From contig NC_052349.1 of the NCBI RefSeq assembly GCF_009727055.1, positions 45,845,332 through 45,909,331 of the forward strand: a DNA stretch of 64,000 bases. Reading direction: 5' to 3'. This document shows positions 5,172 through 55,795 of this stretch, piece after piece (positions within the stretch are counted from its first letter, which is position 1; each line of letters opens with the position of its first letter). Origin of the DNA: Benincasa hispida (taxonomy: Eukaryota; Streptophyta; Magnoliopsida; Cucurbitales; Cucurbitaceae). A program made the position numbers and the translations under genes. The notes under the pieces were generated by a model that was given only the letters and a program-made list of their open reading frames with translations, ran no database searches and had not been told where the DNA came from.

Positions 5172-7040
5172 ATGGCCACAAATGAAAAGAACTTATCTCT
5201 GAATTTCAGTCCTCGAGTCCCCCAATCCCAAAGCCTGGTTAGTTCAAACACATGCTTGATGCTAGCCATTGATATAAGCACCCAGCCATGGCTTCTTCCC
5301 AATCTCTGTTCATGTTCAGGCAAAGCAAAGCTGCTCCGGAGACGAGCTTCAAAAACCATTGTCAATCTGAAAGAAAATGGCCAAACAAACCAAGAATGCA
5401 CAACAGCCGCAGGCAATATCAGACGCCAGGTTCTTACCCCACAAGAAAGAATTAAGCTTAATGCTTACCCGGATCGAGAATTCTATGCTTTTCCACGCTT
5501 CGTTACTCATGTTGATGATGGCTTCATCTCAACATTAACCAATTTGTATCGGGAAAGGCTGCAACCGGGTAGTGAAGTCCTTGACTTGATGAGCTCTTGG
5601 GTTAGCCATCTCCCAAAAGAAGTTAAGTATAAAAGAGTGGTTGGACATGGCCTAAATGCTCAGGAACTTGCCAGAAACTCCCAACTTGATTACTTCTTTG
5701 TCAAGGATCTTAATGAAGATCAGAAGCTAGAGTTGGAGAGTTGCAGTATTGATGCAGTTGTGTGCACTGTCAGTGTGCAGTACCTTCAACAGCCTGAGAA
5801 GGTTGTCAAGTCCTTTCCATTCTATGTTACTGCATATTATTTCCATATTTTTAGACTAACCGAACAAGAATGAAGCAGATTTAGGACATGTTTAAATCGA
5901 CTAGAGAAAAAAATATTTTTCAAAAAAATCATTATTATTTAAATTCTTAAGATAAAAACCGTTTAAAATACACTTTGAAAGGTGTTTCAAAAACTATTTT
6001 GAGTGGTTGCCAAACACTTCAATTTTTTTTCAAAATGACTTATTTTATAGAAACACTTGAAAAGTTAAACCAAACACACACTTAGTCAATCCCCATATAT
6101 TATTGGCATTTATGGTTCACCTGATACATATTATTTTATAGATCAGAAGTACTAATTTAGCATTCTCTCATTCTTCTAGGTAAGCATTTAAATTTTAAAT
6201 TTTCTCCAATTTTGAACACTTAAAAAAAACAATCTCCTCTACCAACATTTTGCTCAGGAGGAACATACGAATTTTTAGGGGGTTGAAAAGTAAGTTTTAA
6301 ATAGGGGTTCCAATTCGTCTCTGAACCTAAGCCTTCAGCTGGGAGATTATTAAAATCTCTTATTCTCAGTAATTGGAGCACCTTTTTGTGACTTCCTGTT
6401 CTTTTAGTTAGTCTCCCATGTGCACTCTTTCTGGTTTCTCGTAGAAGTAGAAAATAGAAGCAAAACATGAGCCTAACTCAGCAATTGAAGCATCTACTCC
6501 TTGAGGTTGGAGGCTCAAAGTCCCACTCCCACCCCCACATTTTTCATAAAAAGTAGAAAATAGAAAACCATGGGGGCAATCCAGAATAATTATAACATTC
6601 ACGGTCACTATTAGCAGGCAATCCAGGATAATTATAACATTCTAACAATCATAAGCAAAGTTAACTTTATAAAAATGGAAGACCTAACCAGTAAATATTC
6701 ATTGTAGGTGTTTGCTGAGGTGTTCAGGGTGCTGAAGCCAGGAGGAGTGTTCATCATCAGCTTTAGCAACAGAATGTTCTATGAGAAAGCTGTGAGTGCA
6801 TGGAGAGATGGGTCTGCATACAGTAGACTACAATTAGTAGTCCAATATTTCCAATGCATTGAAGGATTTACACAACCAGAAATTATTAGAAAGATACCTG
6901 CTTCAACTGGCACTGCAGAAGATAACTCACCATTCAGTTGGATTTTGAGGCTGCTGGGCTTGCTGTCAGGCTCAGACCCTTTCTATGCAGTGTTAGCTCA
7001 CAAAAATTTCAAGCCTGTATATACAACTGAAAATATTTGA
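5172..7040 (+). CDS. SAM-dependent methyltransferase-like protein, probably plastid-targeted
   Basis: Two exons, 5172-5801 and 6708-7040, join in phase 0 to give 320 residues. The donor is AAG/GTTGTC and the acceptor TTGTAG/GTG, so QQPEK runs into VFAEVFRVLKPGG without a break. The N-terminal 75 or so residues are Ser-, Arg- and Lys-rich with few acids, as in a chloroplast transit peptide. The fold of class I methyltransferases is recognisable: VLDLMSSWVSHLP in the motif I position (without the usual GxGxG glycines), then SIDAVVCTVSVQYL, then VLKPGG. The substrate cannot be told; the lack of the glycine loop leaves activity open. The first ATG fits because it precedes the basic leader directly. 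The gene converges on the NET gene, whose stop lies 822 bp away. Confidence 0.8.
5802..6707 (+). other. Intron of the methyltransferase gene, with a MITE-like insertion
   Basis: The 906-bp intron has GT and AG ends. At about 5880-6083 it contains a segment that starts TTTAGGACATGTTTAAATC and ends CCAAACACACACTTAG, imperfectly inverted ends typical of short hAT-type elements. A 25-bp phrase, GCAATCCAG(A/G)ATAATTATAA with CATTC following, occurs twice at about 6576 and 6618. Confidence 0.55.
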
Positions 7041-34843: not shown

Positions 34844-36747
34844 TGAAGGAGTATATCAGCATGCAGTAGAAGCAACAAGGATCGATAAACATTCTATTTC
34901 ATTAATTTTGGTTATAAATAAAGCATGCTCATACAATAATAAGAGGGTTTTAAGACATACTTTTGTAGAACCTCTTGAAACTCGAATTCAGCTACAAATC
35001 TTCTCCAAATCTTATTGTGAACAACCTCAAGGCCTTCCCTACTATTCTCTTGGAGCCTTAAATTGAGTTGTGGGACTCAAAATAAGCTTGAATGAAGGGA
35101 ATTTGGAGAAGAAACTCACTGATGCAACTTGAAGAACACATTCTTCAACCTCACAAGTTTTCAACAAAACTTCAGTAAGTTCAAACAGTTTGCATGCTCG
35201 ATTCTCAGCTCAATCTTTCCTATTTATTGCAAGACCATCATGCAAAGAAGAAGGTTGCATGAAGAACACCTCATGCTTGGAAGATTCAATCAAGAATCAA
35301 GTGGGAATTGAGTGAGCTCCTTCAAGGTGATAGTGGAGTTCTCCCACTTTTTCCATTTTGTGTTTTCAAATTTTGATTTTCAAAATGATTTCTAAAATCA
35401 ATTTTGTTTTTCAAAATTAAAACTTTATTAATTTTACAAAATCAATTTCATAAATTAATTTTCTAATAAAATTAATAATAAATAATTAATTAAACAATCT
35501 AATTAATTCTAACTAATTTAATATAAATATTAAATTAGTTTTACACAAATTCCACCATCATGTATCCCCACATCATGAATTTAATATTTAAATCATATTT
35601 AAATACTAATTGATTCTCCAATTCCGTTTAATTCCAAAATTAAACACGTAATTATATCACATATAATTACTAATTTCCTTAATTCTAATTTGAATGTTTC
35701 AAATTAATTTATCATGCTAATCTAAGGCTAATCCATTTACGAGCTAGTAGGGGGACCTTTGGACCTACAGATCATGGGCTCCAACGATCCGAGATTAATT
35801 GTCTAAACTTTGTACACCAAATTAACCTCCATTCGTTAACTAATGGGTCACTCCACTAAAGCCCATAGTTGCATTCCCTTCACTGTAGATATATTATGTC
35901 CACTTGTTGTAACCATCATTAGTAAGTTAACCCTTCACAGGTTGTTCGTAATAACGACTGGGTCAAAAGTCTGTTTTACCCCCGAGATTATCTCTTGTTT
36001 CTTAAGTTCCACTGATCCTCTAATGAACAATTGGTTTGTGATCCGATCAATAAATCGAGTCCTCTCAGGCCAATGAGAGGGTGGGGCCCCTTGCTCAAGA
36101 CCCGAAGTCAGCACTTAAGGGAACAACCTCTCTACTATCTCTGAAAGCGGGTAGGATTGAATTCCATCTTGCACCCTATGTCCCCAGCTATCTACCCATT
36201 CTTACCCTTGAAATGGAGGTTTATTGAGCCGATGCTGTTGAGCCAACCCTCACCTATGCAAATCTAAGGATAATCTTAAATAAATCGGAGTTCATAGTTA
36301 GCTCAGGATTAAGGTCAAGTTACCTAGGTCATCGCTTTGAAATAGTCAGCCTTAAACAGTAAACAACGTTATAAAGTAAGAGTGACTGATTTCGTGGTCC
36401 GATCTTGTAGAAACCCATTGCATAGGATACCCCTACTCCTCATGTCATAACGTGTACGAATTAGGATCACTTCGTCTGTAGCACTTTACAACTCTTTGTA
36501 ACAACTATAGAGTGGGCCACATCCAATAGTGTTACCAGAATAAGGCACCCAACCTTATTTATATACTATAGATCATTTTGACTATTTACTCGAATCTGAT
36601 CCACTTTTATGTCTCTTATAAAGACTAAGTACTGTAATAGTCATGGATATTTTAGTTTATTGGATAAATTTCTAAAATGAAAGAAGCAATTCATATATTC
36701 AATAACAACTTATTGGATTTTCAGACACTAGAAGAAATTTGGGCTTT

Positions 36748-37095
36748 AATGTCGGTTGCCAACCGACATTAAAGATAGTGTTATTAAAGCCCTTTAATGT
36801 CTGTTGCCTTTAAGTTTTAAATCGACATTAAAGGGCCTCAATAACACTAATAACACAGCCTTCAATGTCAGTTGCAACTGACATTGAAGGTCTTTAATGT
36901 CGGTTGCAATCGACATTGAAGGTCTTTAATATCAGTTCAATGTCGGTTGCAACCGACATTAAAGGTCATGATATTGAAGGTCTTTAATGTTGGTTGCAAT
37001 CGACATTAAAGGTCTTTAGTGATTAAAGGTCTTTAATGTTGATTGCAATCGACATTAAAGCCTGTTTTATTTTAATTCTTAACCGACATTGAAGC
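36748..37095. repeat. Left subterminal repeats of the CACTA element
   Basis: About eight palindromic units of the type AATGTCGGTTGCAACCGACA with AAAGGTCTTT spacers follow one another. Such repeats bind the transposase in En/Spm elements. Confidence 0.85.
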
Positions 37096-37244
37096 CCGAA
37101 TTTGTCCTTTTTTTTAAATTCCATTGCCGAATCCATTTTTTTGGTTAAATAAGTTAAAAACGACATTATATGTCTCGTGTTGGGTCAGGAAATGTCTGTG
37201 CTTTATATTAAAAAGTATAAAAAAATTTGCTTGGCGAGCCTATC

Positions 37245-37640
37245 AATATTTGTCTTCCACCTATGAATTTATCCATAAACAAGAATCAATATTTCCAATC
37301 CATTACATATACTCATCAATATTTTTCTTCCACCTATGAATTTATCCACCAAAATTTGCAAAATAATACCAAAACTAGATTTTCATATAATACAACTTAC
37401 ACCAAAGCCATCATTTCTCTCATTCACAAATATCAATTAGTACTAATTCCATGAATAAACAAGAATCACAATACCACGAATACAGCTTCCAATAATAAAC
37501 AGATCATGTCTTCCACCTATGAATTTATCCATAAACAAGAATCACAATACCAGAACCAGACTTTCATAGAATACTTACACCAAGCCATCATTTCTCTCAT
37601 TCACAAATATCATATTAGTACTAATTCCATTCACAAAGAT
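37245..37640. repeat. Direct repeats inside the CACTA element
   Basis: CTTCCACCTATGAATTTATCC occurs three times (about 37253, 37327, 37506). A longer unit with GCCATCATTTCTCTCATTCAC occurs twice (about 37398, 37578). No coding frame is involved. Confidence 0.75.
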
Positions 37641-38398
37641 CATGGTTAGATAAATTTACATTCATTCTAAGCTAGCATTTTCATTCTATTGAGACAAAAA
37701 ACAAGAATTACATCTTTACACAAATCGGCCAATAAAACTTGTCCATTGGGTCCAAATTACGTCGATCTTTCATTGCGTACATGCATCTTTTGTATTGAAC
37801 TACAAAAAGGAAAAAAAAAAAGATAAATTCAACATAAGTTTACGTCCATTTATTAAATTAAAGCTAGTACTATGTAAAAAATAAATAATTTACGTACGAG
37901 ACTAGCATATTCAACTAAAAAGTTTTACATTATCCATATAACTAAAAAATAAAAAGCCCCCTAAAGCAACACCAAAACTTCAAGCATCTAAAAAGCATAC
38001 CAATGGATACAAGACTTCAATCAAATGAAACCACAAAAAACATCTCCAACTAAAAGATGCTATCGAGGGTCAATCTTAGATTATCTAAACAAGATTCCAA
38101 AGACGAATTAGATTCAAATTGTATGTAACTAAAAGCAAATACAACACAGAAATACATCACTGAACTTCTGCCATCTATCTGTCACAATTGCATTTTACCT
38201 TCCTAAATCGAAACTAAATGTTAATCAATGTATGAGCATAGACAAATGTTAGTGACGCCCCAAGCTGCAAGATGTTTTGTTCGTTTTAATGCAGATGACT
38301 TTGGTGACTTTTTACATCTAAAGGGTTAACCATAACTTAGGATGTTAATCAATCATGATAACTTCTAAACTCAGCAACAATAACATAAAAAGAAGTAC
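37641..38398. other. Non-coding part of the CACTA element downstream of the HISN3 piece
   Basis: This stretch lies 3' of the last HISN3 exon on the minus strand. It may hold intron sequence of that gene; I see no further HISN3 exon and no transposase. Confidence 0.4.
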
Positions 38399-38788
38399 TT
38401 TTTTTCTACAACTAAGATACAACGCAAGCCTCTGTCTCCCAACAATGCGAACAAGATCTTTAAGCCTTGTAAGATCCATTTGTCCATTGTTGAACACATA
38501 CTGCGACAGAACCAAGAAACATACAACATTTAAAGCCATTGTGGGCGGTTCGAAAATAGTTTACTTAAGACAAATGAAATCTTTATTATCTTCTATATTC
38601 AAGTACTACAATAGCTCAACAAGGTTCAGTGTTCCAGAATTTCAGAACCACATTACACTAACTCCATTTCAGGCAATAAATTAAGCAATATCATCGTAAA
38701 TAGATAAAAGAAAAGAACTTATTGAAGTAACAATGGCATGGCTAGCTCCTTCTTCAATATAACTAGAAGCATTTTCTGAATTTATCCC
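38399..38788 (-). pseudogene. HISN3: Captured fragment of HISN3 (histidine biosynthesis isomerase, HisA type)
   Basis: Two exons on the minus strand. Exon A, 38788-38723, encodes GINSENASSYIEEGASHAIV and TS. Exon B, 38500-38399, begins [20 protein letters not shown] and ends [10 protein letters not shown], with AG and GT at its ends. This is the plant HisA-type ProFAR isomerase, the enzyme of the fourth step of histidine synthesis in plastids; the match covers 56 internal residues of about 300. The donor of exon A is ATAAGT instead of GTAAGT, and LDLSCRKK of the family reads LYLSCRKK. Exon A is fused, without an intron, to the last QCR7 exon. It cannot make an enzyme. Confidence 0.82.
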
Positions 38789-39072
38789 AATGCCTCACGT
38801 TCTGCTCTCTCCTTCTTTACCTGCAAAACATACCTAAAGCGGGAAAAGAATTACCTTTAGCTTCATTCATTCAGCTTTCTTCGGTTTAATAAAGATAAAT
38901 ATCAACAAAGATCAATACAAATGAGATTGTTTAATTACCAAACGAAGTCATTTACCCTAAAGTTTAAAGGGAAAATGCTAAAGAAGCTATGTACCAACAG
39001 TCTAGCAAGACATCGAATGAAATTTGGTGGAATAAGATAGGTCAACATCAAGTAGAAAGCAATGGTAGGATG

Positions 39073-41430
39073 TGTAACGACCTAACCCCCTAGGACTTAG
39101 GTTAGATCGTTACTAAAATAAATGCATGTATAAAATTTAAAACGACGCTCAGTTATGTTGAAATAAATGTTAATTAAACAAGAGAAGTTCAAAAGACATT
39201 TATTAAATGCAATTATTAAAACAATAATAGGGTACCCATAATTCGTAAAGACTATTAAAAGTATATAAAAGAAATAATCCTTAATAATAAGTTTAAGACA
39301 GTAAAACTAAACATTAAGAAAAAAAAAAATAAGGACTCTAAATGTCATGATGTGGAAGCTTAAAAACTAGTCCCAGTGGCACGATCACGAATTCCACTGC
39401 ACCATCGCCGGTGCATCTTTACCCTTACCTGAAACGTCAACATAAGAAAGAATGAGCATGAAATACTCAGTAAGTAACCCCACCACTGGGGTCAGGCTAG
39501 ACATCTATGTCCTTTAGATACCCACCTATGGCATATAAGCACATGAAACAAACAAGAGATTGAGTCCTATCCTATTGTAGTTAAGTATGCCCACAAAACT
39601 AGTGAATCCCGAAGGAAACACAAAACTGGTGAATCCCGAAGGAAACAAAAAACTGGTGAATCCCGAAAGAAACACAAACTGGTGAATCCCGAAGGAAACA
39701 CAAACTGGTGAATCCCGAAGGAAACACAAAACTAGTGAATCCCAAAGGAAACACAAACTGGTGAATCCCGAAGGAACACAAATTGGTGAATCCCGAAGGA
39801 AACACAAATTGGTGAATCCCGAAGGAAACACAAAACTGGTTGAGCATCCTAACTAATCAATAAGGATAATTCCATATAGTCTCACGTTTCTAAAAGAATC
39901 ACATCGTTAAAATTCCAAAACATACATGAAATCCTTGGTACCATGGCTCCATCACATACAACATAATCCTCAACAAACATATTATACAACATTCCATGTA
40001 AACCTTAACAATCATAATTTTCTACAACATACAAGTATGCCTCAACCCAAGCAGATCAGACGTCGCACATATGAAAACACAATACCATCACATAACTAAC
40101 GATTGTGTATTTAAATAAATTCAGAACTCGTGCCAAAACATACATTTGATTCAGGTCAATACTATCAATCAATATGCTAACAATTTACCATAACATACAC
40201 TCACCATGCTAGCAATACAACTAAAGCCTGGCTTTGTGGGCAGTTCTAGTGGTTAGATTACTTACCTTAATCGAAATTCCACAGATAAATCTCCGACAAC
40301 CAAACGATGACCGCGATTTGAAATAACGACCCTACCATACGAATACAACCAATAAAATTTCAGTCCAATAAATAATTGCGACACCATCAGATTCAAAACC
40401 AAACCCCAAAAGCTTGCCGAAGGAACTTGATTAACAACTACTCCAAATCTCCTTCCAACAGATTTAACTCCCAATGGACGACAGCTTGGAACCTTAAAGA
40501 TACAAGGGTTAAGTCAACTTAATTCAGTAATCAAAGCGTGCTCAACAACCAATAATAAGGACCATAACTCTCAACCAAAACTCTTGACGAATGGTCTTGA
40601 ATCCGCTGGACAGGTCGCTGCTGTGATTTCAAGCTCAAATCTAAAATCAAAATAATGTGACTAATTTAATCCTTAATCCAACTTGAGTGGCCATGCCAAA
40701 ATTTTTCAAGAAACCCAACCACCAAAATAGATACTTACCAAAAATCTAAGAAGTCAAGCTGTTGGAAGACGGTGCAACACGCGGCGGTCAGAAGGTTTGA
40801 TCGACGGTGGCGGGCGGTTGGTCAGGGGGCTGGAGTCGGGCGACGACGTTCGTGGGCTAGGAGCGGCGGCAACTCAGTCGCTCTCCGGCTGGGCGAGCGG
40901 TGCACCCGACGGCGACTCTCCAGCCGGGCGAGCGTGCGACGTCGGGTTTCGGTAGTGAGGAGGTCGGCAGTAAGAGAGGTCGTGACCGACAGTGAGGGAG
41001 ACGGCAACAAGATGGGTTTGGCTTGTGCGGCGAAGGGGGGTCCGTGACCGGCAGGAGGAAAATTTTGGGGGAGAGGGTTTTTCATGTGGTGAGGGAGAAG
41101 GGATGGGTTTTATTTTTATTTTATAATAATAATAATAATAATAACTAAAAAGGAAATAATATAATTACATTTAAATCATTTTCTTAATCTACTTTATACT
41201 ATTTATTTCCTTTTCTTTTCAAAAGAAAATTAATTCCTGCCATTAGTTTTCAAATTGAATTTCAAAAATTGAATAATTTTCACGTCAACACTTAAATTCT
41301 CGCACTTATACTTCAAATCTAAAATTCCAAACATGCCCTCCAACTAAGGGCAATTACTGAATTTTCAACTAATAAAGTTACTGAAAATTACATTATTATT
41401 AAATAAAATAAAAAAATGTGGGATGTTATA
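39073..41430. mobile_element. Solo LTR in the captured QCR7 intron, TSD GGATG
   Basis: It starts TGTAACGACCTAACCCC and ends GTGGGATGTTATA. GGATG flanks it at 39068-39072 and 41431-41435. The 2,358 bp contain a minisatellite, a GC-rich block (40780-41060) quite unlike the surroundings, and no gene. Superfamily is probably gypsy, but that is an inference, as is the orientation. It is the youngest layer of this nest. Confidence 0.8.
39598..39840. repeat. Minisatellite, nine units of about 26 bp
   Basis: The unit is ACTGGTGAATCCCGAAGGAA followed by ACACAA. Units differ by single bases and by one-base length changes. Frames such as FPSGFTSF on the minus strand are only translations of the repeat. 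Confidence 0.9.
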
Positions 41431-43275
41431 GGATGTGCCACACACAATCCCCACAACTATTCAATAAGTAGTATTCCAAGAAATCAAAGGAGTTGTAGAA
41501 CGCATATGCAGCATCATGCGACCCTACTTTCTGCTATTATGCAGTTTAAATTAACACAAATTTTATTCATCTAAGCTGAGACATTAATACTAAACAATTT
41601 GACACAACGAGTAGAACAATTGAGTAGGTTATTTTGCACTGATCATCAAATCATCAACCTTGCTCTATCTTATTTTTATCCAGCCTTCCTTCCATACTCG
41701 CCAGTAAATAAAAATCAAAGAATCCAGATTAATCAAATAAAAAAAAAATTACTGCCACACATTTTACTTTATTTGCATGTGATAAAGCAATTTCGCTCGT
41801 ATAATGTTTTTGAAAATAATATAAGAATTAGGATTAACAGCGAAGATTTGGTGGTAGTGCATGAAAATCACTCGTATAAACTCGTATAATGTTACAATCA
41901 GAACAAATCAAGAATTCAACCACAAACAAAGGCCTAACAAGTAATTTATTTACTTTAAAAGAAAACATATCCAGGATTCATACATATATTACCCAAAAGC
42001 TGATATCTATCTAGATCATGAAACCTGAAATCATGAAAAAGACAATAGAGGACAGAACGAGAAATCTTGAAGGGGAATTCAATAAAATTAGAACTACACT
42101 AGATAAACAATTCAACTGTAATGCAAGTACATAGCAAGATACCATCTAGGCTAACAGATGGTAAATAATATCAAAATCAATAACTCCCAAATACAGGTCA
42201 TAAGATACAAAACTCTAAGAACCATGACTGACACTACGATATAGAGTAGCTGCCTCATTTCCATGAACACGACCAGACATTTTTCACTCTTTTTTTACCA
42301 CAAATTTTTTTCACTTTAAATAATAAAGCGAGAGATATGAAATAATGGAAAGATTTATAAGTGCCAGCATATCCTGGAGATAGCTTCTGAATGGTGTTTG
42401 CATGGCCTGCCAAAAGAATGAAATAATTCAAACTAATAATCATCTAACTACTATTTAGAATTCAACATCCTATGCTTAGTTGGGGAAAAACAACAAAACC
42501 CAATACAATCAAGAGTTAGTTCCCAGTGACCATGAAAAATTATAGAAATTTAACCATAAAAAAAATACTAGATTTCGAGAATATTGCACACTCAACAATT
42601 ATATTAAGAGCATGTTGAATACAGAAATAAAACTGAAGATTATTCGGTTATGATAAACATATAACACATTTCTGTTTTTTCGGTGAGGCTCGAATCGATC
42701 TAAGGAAGAGATAAACATCTATAGTAGGAAAAAACTTGAAGATCATCAGGAAGGTACTGATGCTTCATGGAAAGGTCCATGGCCCACTTCAAATGCTGAT
42801 TGCCCGCATCAACAACCTCCCTGGGGAGTCGATTCAAAGCCTCATTCACATCAATATCATAATATGGATCATACAGATCGAATCGAAGACCTAACATAGT
42901 GACACAACCCAAAATCAATCTCCACGGAACAAAATTCGAAATCAACGCCCTAGAAAAAAAAAACGATTAGGGTTTCAATTACCATAATTACGGAGGCGTT
43001 AGGTCGATCTGGCGATGAATCCCCAATTTTCTTCTTTAAATCGATGAAGGACTGCAAAAAGGACGCCATTTCGTTCTCTCTCCTTTATTCCTCCGAAAAA
43101 ATTTACTCTCTGATTTTTCCGTTAGAACAAGATTGGTTAATGAACATGAACTAAGTTGCACAATGGCTAGATCTGGCGTATGACTTGCAGATTGGTGAGA
43201 GTGAGAGAGAGAGAAAGAAAGATCAGAACTTCAGGCGGTGGATCTACTTTTTCGTGGGTTAGAGAGAGAGTTCGA

Positions 43276-43278
<3 letters not shown>

Positions 43279-43314
<36 letters not shown>
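43279..43314. repeat. (GA)n microsatellite
   Basis: Eighteen GA units lie upstream of the captured QCR7 start on the minus strand, where a plant 5' UTR CT-repeat would be. Confidence 0.9.
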
Positions 43315-43317
<3 letters not shown>

Positions 43318-43564
43318 CTCACTAGCGATGCTAGGCGATGGACGGTGAGGCGATCGAAGAAAGGGTCTTGGCCAGGGAATGTGTAGTTGAGGAAGGCAAC
43401 GTGGGAAAGGTTTGGACAGAGAAGAAGAAGAAGATTGGGGATTTAATTTGAGGGTCAATTTTTTTTCTTTTACACAATATATATATTAGTTTTTCTTAAT
43501 TTTTTTATTGATAATTGGGGAAGGCGGGAAATGAAAATGGGAGAGAGGGAAACAAAAAAAATTG

Positions 43565-43716
43565 ACCTACAATGTCGTTTTTAAACAGACATTATAGGTA
43601 CACCTACAATGTCGGTTTAAAACTGACATTAAAGATCCATTTTTTTTAAGAAACCGACACTGTACATCCATTTTAATTTTTCCCAACCGACATCAAAGCC
43701 CAGATTTCTTGTAGTG
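43565..43716. repeat. Right subterminal repeats and terminus of the CACTA element
   Basis: Three units of ACCTACAATGTCGGTTTAAA type and AACCGACA motifs lead to the terminal GTAGTG. They mirror the left side but are fewer. Confidence 0.8.
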
Positions 43717-43769
43717 AGAATAAGTTTTATTGTTTATGAACCACGAGTTTTAAGACATAAAACCCAACA

Positions 43770-54875: not shown

Positions 54876-55204
54876 GGGGGTGTGCGTGTTGCCTGGGATG
54901 AGGTTTGTTTTCCGTTATCTGAAGGGGGTTTGTGTATCCATCACACTTCTTCATGGAATATGGCAACTATCTTGAAATTGTTATGGTTATTGTTGGTTCG
55001 GTCTGGTTTCTTATAGGTGTTGGGTTTTATGTCCTAATACTCGTGGTTTGTTAACAATAAAACTTATTCTGAAAATTCAATAAGTTTTTATTGAATATAT
55101 GAATTGCTTATTTCGTTTTAGAAATAAATCCAATAAACTAAAAGATCTATGACTATTACATGAGTACTTGAACTTTATGTGGAGCATAAAAGTGGATCAA
55201 GTTG

Positions 55205-55795
55205 GATCGTGTAGCCTCAGGTAAATGATCGTAGGGATTTTACTAAGCAATGGTTTAGTAGTTCTTTTTCTAGACGATCGTGTAGTATTTTCTAATCGAT
55301 CATTTAGCTAATGCTAAGCGATGGGGTAAATCGTTTACCATGTCACGTAGTGTTGTTTGTGCGATCGCGTAGGCGCTGGAGGTAGGCGATCGTAGTGAGA
55401 GCATGCGATGCTCGTCGTTTAGTAGAAGGCACGCGCTAGACGATCGTGTAGTTAGCAAGCTTCATCACTTAGTTACTACCTATGCGATCGTGCATATGCG
55501 ATATGGAGGTGCTAGCTAAGCGATCGTTTAGGCGATGGTGCTTCGTGGCATCGTAGTCGCTTAGACGATCGTGGAAGGTGGGCGCTGTGCGGAGTGCGCT
55601 AAGCGGTCGTATACTTCAGGCTTCATCGCTTAGTAAAGGTACACGAACGTGTAGTAATAACTAAACGATCGTTTGGATTTTTCTAGATGATCGTATAGTA
55701 AATTCTAAACAATCGTTTAACTCTGGAGCGCTAGTACGCGATAGAACGAAGTGTTTGTTTTATCGTGTAGACGATCGCGGGGTGCTTAGTACACA
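55205..55795. repeat. Array of degenerate CGATCGTxTAG words
   Basis: Over about 590 bp, more than twenty copies of words such as ACGATCGTGTAG, GCGATCGTTTAG, AACGATCGTTTGG and their variants occur at 15 to 40 bp spacing. The sequence between them is not conserved and there is no open frame. Confidence 0.75.

Follow-up and report, generated by a model that had tools for sequence, protein, structure and literature searches.

The 64,000-nucleotide stretch of the Benincasa hispida genome analyzed here (the window; contig NC_052349.1, forward-strand positions 45,845,332 to 45,909,331) contains a 6,991-bp non-autonomous CACTA transposon in which a piece of QCR7 is joined, exon to exon, to a piece of HISN3. 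The element is very probably one copy of a non-autonomous Pack-CACTA-like family, the founder of which acquired host DNA on at least two occasions and then spread by means of a transposase acting in trans. Read on the minus strand, it consists of a CACTA 5′ end (43716-43554), a leader (43553-43120), the QCR7 piece (43119-38785), the HISN3 piece (38789-37903), and a CACTA 3′ end (37905-36726). The initial annotation had proposed CACTA termini with an AGA duplication around these pieces, and both are borne out by a 33-nt terminal inverted repeat (TIR), by AGA on both sides, and by related empty sites, which are long terminal repeat (LTR)-like. The element, its ends, and its target-site duplication (TSD) are as follows.

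36726..43716, cargo read on the minus strand: non-autonomous CACTA element, 6,991 bp, with TIR, TSD, and empty sites; transposase domain absent in six frames
36723..36725: left copy of the TSD, AGA; a single AGA at the empty site 55018-55247
43717..43719: right copy of the TSD, AGA
36726..36758, plus strand: TIR at the element 3′ end relative to the cargo, 33 nt, 91%
43684..43716, minus strand: TIR at the element 5′ end relative to the cargo, 33 nt, 30 of 33 matched
36726..37905: CACTA 3′ backbone with subterminal repeats, common to relatives without the QCR7-HISN3 cargo
43554..43716: CACTA 5′ end, common to other family members
55018..55247, minus strand: related empty site, a homologous LTR-like copy without the element

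Joining the two flanks through one AGA gave a sequence that aligned, across the joint, at five further sites in the window; the best of these, 55018-55247 on the minus strand, reads through with a single AGA and no element. Because the flanks align to other LTR-like copies, the element sits in repeated, LTR-like sequence. The window holds 743 CACTA...TAGTG pairs spaced 0.2-20 kb apart, 10 of which have equal 3-bp flanks. The 36726/43716 pair matched at 27 of 30 terminal bases, compared with 14 for the next best of those 10, and the top equal-flank pair in 50 dinucleotide shuffles scored 21 of 30, below the real pair. It is the sole pair among the 743 that unites strong end similarity with a duplication, and a chance pairing was rejected by this TIR/TSD control. 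Two further pairs, lacking equal flanks, scored 27 and 26 of 30 and fall within segments that are inverted copies of each other; they were rejected as elements for want of a duplication. Within the element, 22 of the 30 window matches to the subterminal repeat unit (up to three mismatches) were found, all near its ends, and a six-frame profile scan of both strands detected no transposase domain in the window copy. The CACTA TIR, 3-bp TSD, and clustered subterminal repeats are traits of CACTA (En/Spm) elements, while the non-autonomous state, the host gene DNA between the ends, and the multiple copies sharing both ends and cargo are those of Pack-CACTA (Pack-TYPE) elements.

The cargo and the leader that precedes it comprise the following features, given in minus-strand order.

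43120..43553, minus strand: leader between the CACTA 5′ end and QCR7, common to the QCR7-only relative L027
38785..43119, minus strand: captured QCR7 piece with its introns, beginning approximately 50 nt upstream of the start codon and ending in exon 4, with a nested insert inside
42983..43069, minus strand: QCR7 exon 1, 87 nt where 94 are expected; internal patch replaced and frame lost
42736..42890, minus strand: QCR7 exon 2
42359..42406, minus strand: QCR7 exon 3, with splice donor ATAAAT
39073..41430: nested 2,358-bp insert in QCR7 intron 3, with LTR-like ends and GGATG flanks
38785..38820, minus strand: QCR7 exon 4, cut off at the join
38785..38789, minus strand: QCR7/HISN3 join, a 5-nt overlap (TGGGA) common to both donors
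37903..38789, minus strand: captured HISN3 piece, comprising an exon end, an intron, the next exon, and part of the following intron
38723..38788, minus strand: HISN3 partial exon (GINSENASSYIEEGASHAIVTS), with splice donor ATAAGT
38399..38500, minus strand: next HISN3 exon (YVFNNGQ...SCRKK)

That intron-containing QCR7 and HISN3 exons lie on the same strand, as the initial annotation had read them, was upheld by matches to the Pfam family UCR_14kD (E = 1.4e-15) and to chain 7jrg_F, which is QCR7 (E = 3.1e-40), for the first gene and to chain 9fcf_A, the isomerase (E = 2.4e-24), for the second, with exon coordinates on the minus strand; the 55-aa HISN3 piece by itself had no Pfam match. Since introns are present, the pieces were acquired as DNA. 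The QCR7 piece is 92% identical to the host gene at C9:63490769-63491587, with homology beginning at 43119 and 7.9% of 810 positions differing. All four splice acceptors of the window cargo are intact. Among the aligned copies, the window copy alone has the exon 3 donor ATAAAT, the host gene and the other copies having GT there, and the HISN3 donor ATAAGT is carried by all chimeras having a base there. The nested insert was likewise peculiar to the window copy among six chimeras read end to end, the other five running across 39074-41429 without it. The initial annotation had noted neither this insert, nor the exon 1 frameshift with its replaced patch, nor the two mutated splice donors. Inside this insert is a tandem array with a 26-27-bp unit (like ACTGGTGAATCCCGAAGGAAACACAA) at 39592-39840. 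At window position 41968/41969, approximately 137-156 nt of additional sequence is present in L009, L010, L011, and L028 and absent from the window copy and L012; the QCR7 intron of L027 starts at this same place.

The junction, placed correctly by the initial annotation at 38786-38790, falls on the overlap TGGGA at 38785-38789. The chimera reads GCATTGGGATAAATTCAG, the host QCR7 gene GCATTGGGAGCATTG, and the HISN3 gene GGGTGGGATAAATTCAG; as QCR7 reads GCATTGGGAGCATTG and both HISN3 loci, a gene on C6 and a pseudogene on C8, contain TGGGATAAATTCAG, TGGGA is common to both donors. The join runs from exon to exon, with no CACTA-end remnant between QCR7 and HISN3, and at its far end the HISN3 piece overlaps the CACTA backbone by 3 nt, CTA. 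Homology of the 3′ backbone to two relatives without the cargo, L014 and L016 (84-86%), ends at 37905. The two pieces share a strand here, as might be expected of an ordinary host locus in which QCR7 and HISN3 are neighbors and the CACTA-like end pair is fortuitous. That explanation has essentially no chance of being correct and is already refuted: it is contradicted by separate chromosomes, the exon-internal join, the TIR/TSD control, the empty sites, and the many copies. QCR7 is at C9:63.49 Mb (L049, L050), and the HISN3 loci are at C6:0.68 Mb and C8:0.54 Mb, so that adjacent host genes were rejected as a source on the basis of their different chromosomes in B. hispida. Additionally, none of 240 proteins (120 of 466 QCR7 matches and 120 of 138 HISN3 matches listed) matched both queries as a fused host protein would.

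The C6 HISN3 locus (L043) is an intact-looking gene, and that on C8 (L044) is a damaged relative with a stop. The 887-bp HISN3 piece is 89% identical to the C8 pseudogene, and its stretch 38789-38148 is 87% identical to the C6 gene. Three changes are common to the captured HISN3 and the C8 pseudogene and absent from the C6 gene: the donor change GT>AT (14 of 18 copies, 4 gapped), V>A (14 of 18, 4 gapped), and D>Y (18 of 18). Both V and D are kept at those sites in 120 of 120 homologs, among the matches listed, and their invariance there gives the direction of change. The C8 pseudogene lineage, rather than the working C6 gene, is thus the likely donor by these sequence comparisons, and the proposal that two host genes were the sources holds for QCR7 and has to be amended for HISN3, the piece of which more likely came from a pseudogene.

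The chimera was found in many other places in the genome. The element 3′ end gave at least 172 matches, a lower bound, as 40 of 1692 candidates were scored, and the window copy was compared with 20 relatives that were fetched. Five of these (L009, L010, L011, L012, and L028) carry the chimeric cargo between both ends, L010 without 42849-43244 and hence without exon 1; one, L027, has QCR7 and no HISN3; and the other 14 share CACTA end sequence only, four of them just the 3′ end in the stretch fetched. At the 5′ end, members without the cargo match the window copy at most over 43554-43716, or else over 43549-43716. L009, L010, L012, and L028, four of the five chimeras, each have equal 3-bp flanks of their own, the four triplets being AGA, CTT, ATA, and GTT, from which we infer transposition of the cargo-bearing element, whereas the flanks of L011 do not match and its right end is damaged. 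One base of the terminal five-base motif is mutated in L009 (CAGTA) and in L010 and L012 (TAATG).

A query across the join retrieved 31 candidates, every one of which was scored. Twenty-two loci, including the window, matched across the join, 14 of them over the whole or nearly the whole query. Other CACTA copies do have the same ends and the same join, and neither of the two conditions that the initial annotation had named as weakening the capture model, neighboring host genes or a lack of such copies, was observed. Each of the 13 other full loci has a same-strand QCR7 match within 3 kb, and among the 14 the 18-nt join word is exact in nine and a near variant in four; L039 gave no hit to the join-word patterns, yet aligned at 94%. 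The eight further loci adjoin a deletion of approximately 196 nt in the HISN3 intron part, corresponding to window 38501-38697, and the remaining candidates are donors or partial copies. These eight lie at C4:12858263, C8:21984503, C9:30437512, C10:4830817, C12:3002233, C5:35782445, C4:43880167, and C11:59821309, and their shared form suggests that the deleted version underwent a second round of amplification. Divergence among the six aligned chimeras was 5.8-9.1% over the QCR7 stretch and 5.9-7.3% overall. In the HISN3 tree, 13 copies formed an unresolved star with end branches of 0.017-0.04 (five shorter rows left out), as is expected of a burst. Plant substitution rates are near 7e-9 per site per year, at which the burst would be a few million years old. 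The family includes a tnp2-type transposase: L014, which shares both ends, matches Transposase_21 (1.1e-35), Transpos_assoc, and DUF4218, and its 3-bp flanks differ from each other. No transposase was found in L016 on the minus strand, the strand scanned.

The relative with QCR7 alone, L027, bears on the order of events. Its QCR7 homology starts at the same host position, within 2 nt (455-457), as in the window copy, L009, L011, L012, and L028, and it shares changes relative to host QCR7 with the chimeras; a single QCR7 capture is therefore the simplest reading. Its exon 1 is host-like where the chimeras carry the replaced patch, 19 nt over the start of which are an inverted copy of leader sequence approximately 400 bp away. 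In addition, L027 retains 36 nt of CACTA backbone that runs on where the chimeras have already turned to HISN3 sequence; after it comes filler, 15 nt of which are copied from backbone close by. With its host-like exon 1, extra backbone, and filler, L027 is no simple deletion of the chimera, and an unrooted QCR7 tree of eight rows set the six chimeras apart from the host and L027 with support of 100/100. Most likely, to judge from these alignments, QCR7 was captured first and HISN3 was added afterwards, and L027 together with the different donor chromosomes supports the earlier proposal that two separate captures were joined in one CACTA element. Loci at C1:73.03 Mb and C12:53.41 Mb, which have a QCR7 and CACTA-end match and no HISN3 nearby, may also be QCR7-only, as may loci at C8:20.41 Mb and C4:13.02 Mb, to judge from a QCR7 match alone.

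The history of the family may accordingly be set out in three steps. QCR7 DNA, from just before the start codon inward and with its introns, would have entered an element first, as indicated by the breakpoint common to L027 and the chimeras. An 887-bp piece, most likely from the HISN3 pseudogene, would then have been joined in one lineage inside QCR7 exon 4, with a 5-nt overlap to QCR7 and a 3-nt overlap to the CACTA 3′ end; these joins are read directly in the DNA, and their place in the order comes from L027. Finally, the chimera spread: at least 22 join-bearing loci are observed, 14 of them nearly full and 8 deleted, and its movement was probably driven in trans by transposase from coding relatives such as L014. 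As for the manner of acquisition, gap repair after excision, interrupted and accompanied by template switching, appears to be the better explanation, to be held with some reserve, in view of the short join overlaps and of the exon 1 patch and L027 filler templated nearby. A second route, tandem insertion and joint excision, has been proposed for Pack-CACTA and other Pack-TYPE elements (PMC8903248). Here, CACTA copies would have flanked the QCR7 piece and later lain near the HISN3 pseudogene, the outer ends being mobilized and the inner ends repaired by microhomology. Large contiguous cargo with introns suits this route, and the abundance of the family makes neighboring insertions plausible; however, donors on different chromosomes would require two rounds of it, the exon-to-exon join without a CACTA-end remnant speaks against it, and the exon 1 patch and L027 filler resemble template switching instead, so that tandem insertion seems rather unlikely here.

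Several points weigh against this stepwise history with gap repair. Gap repair is the presumed route, and tandem insertion with joint excision could also bring DNA in. The leader 43120-43553, which contains an (AG)16 run, had no match in 450 nt of host QCR7 upstream sequence and is possibly a third captured piece. For the HISN3 donor, comparable sites were divided into 29 pseudogene-like, 21 gene-like, and 5 neither at an 80% threshold (30, 23, and 5, respectively, at 50%), and the HISN3 tree (rows L033 and L045-L048 excluded) leaves the donor unsettled. L027 is the one QCR7-only element read, its leader has approximately 187 nt without a counterpart in the window, and recombination with a different CACTA copy might, in principle, have restored its backbone. 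Finally, end-to-end reading covered five of the 21 other join loci.

The cargo is in all likelihood decaying pseudogene material and not a working gene. When spliced in silico from the QCR7 start codon, it reaches a stop after 43 codons, and the QCR7 frame is lost in all six chimeras that were read: five share a 7-nt shift in exon 1, and L010 lacks that exon. A functional chimeric gene, past or present, or a source of small RNAs acting on QCR7 and HISN3, as had been suggested, would be in keeping with the single orientation, the introns, and the exact 21-mers that the window copy shares with host QCR7 exon stretches (58) and two HISN3 exons (33 and 32), the persistence of which makes a small-RNA effect possible. 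By analogy, soybean Tgm-Express1 is described as producing chimeric spliced transcripts of captured fragments (PMC1947982). Such a role is nonetheless very improbable given the loss of the exon 1 frame or of exon 1 itself in all six aligned chimeras, the two mutated donor sites in the window copy, the probable pseudogene origin of the captured HISN3, and the altered residues in both the QCR7 and HISN3 pieces that are otherwise invariant in 120 of 120 listed homologs per gene. It is equally far-fetched, if not slightly more so, that the at least 22 dispersed chimeric loci, some still transcribed, would give small RNAs matching QCR7 and HISN3; if they did, one transposon burst would have tied the regulation of respiration to histidine synthesis in B. 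hispida.

Elsewhere in the window, many mutually similar LTR-like stretches lie between 16000 and 64000 in direct and inverted orientation (e.g., 22358-23106/25246-24499, 88%), and 63314-63868 matches a copia-type reverse transcriptase (RVT_2, 8.1e-44). The CACTA element is, on these similarities, inserted into what reads as a nest of retrotransposons. A plus-strand open frame of 233 aa (5172-5873) had no Pfam match, neither a Pfam match nor a homolog was found for a 29-aa minus-strand reading near 37700, and no Rfam family reached the gathering score in the 64,000-nt window.

How CACTA elements acquire gene pieces is debated between gap repair and tandem insertion. Relatives lacking this cargo, a form with QCR7 only, the double chimera, and the two donors are all preserved in one genome, which allows a base-by-base comparison of breakpoints. 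The family also suggests that the cargo of a transposon may come from a gene copy that is already dead, so that a captured fragment should not be presumed to indicate, or to regulate, a functional parent. Pack-MULEs, which belong to the Mutator superfamily, have other ends and target duplications than CACTA elements. The chimeric Pack-MULEs of rice resemble the window element in having multiple parents, and approximately 5-10% of rice MULE-derived putative genes have two or more (PMC4858842).

CACTA gene capture and its models are treated in parts of PMC13317346, PMC8903248, and PMC8978399. Chenopodium CACTA elements contain gene fragments within complete ends, and the text on them uses the term abortive gap repair once and credits the mechanism to Rubin and Levy; its passages on capture describe fragments of one gene per element and no exon-to-exon fusion of two genes (PMC8978399). 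The Pack-CACTA and other Pack-TYPE elements of Arabidopsis, rice, and maize form copy clusters and include groups with one or two captured genes; they are like the window family in being non-autonomous, with conserved ends, captured coding DNA, and clustered copies, and the window family differs in its probably pseudogene second donor, its clear join overlap, and the templated filler at a different junction in a relative (PMC8903248). No report of a QCR7/HISN3 CACTA element was found among the titles and abstract openings listed in searches of the literature. The closest described case is soybean Tgm-Express1 of the wp allele, also a CACTA element that contains both exon and intron sequence from several host genes unrelated to one another and gives spliced chimeric transcripts. 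It holds five gene pieces and is located in an F3H intron, whereas the window element holds two identified genes, sits in an LTR-like repeat, is known from its DNA, and, unlike Tgm-Express1, is dispersed in many copies and has a relative with QCR7 alone from which the captures can be ordered (PMC1947982). The process is thus already known in plants; what is new here is an intermediate that orders the captures, the presence of both donors in one genome, and a probable pseudogene donor.

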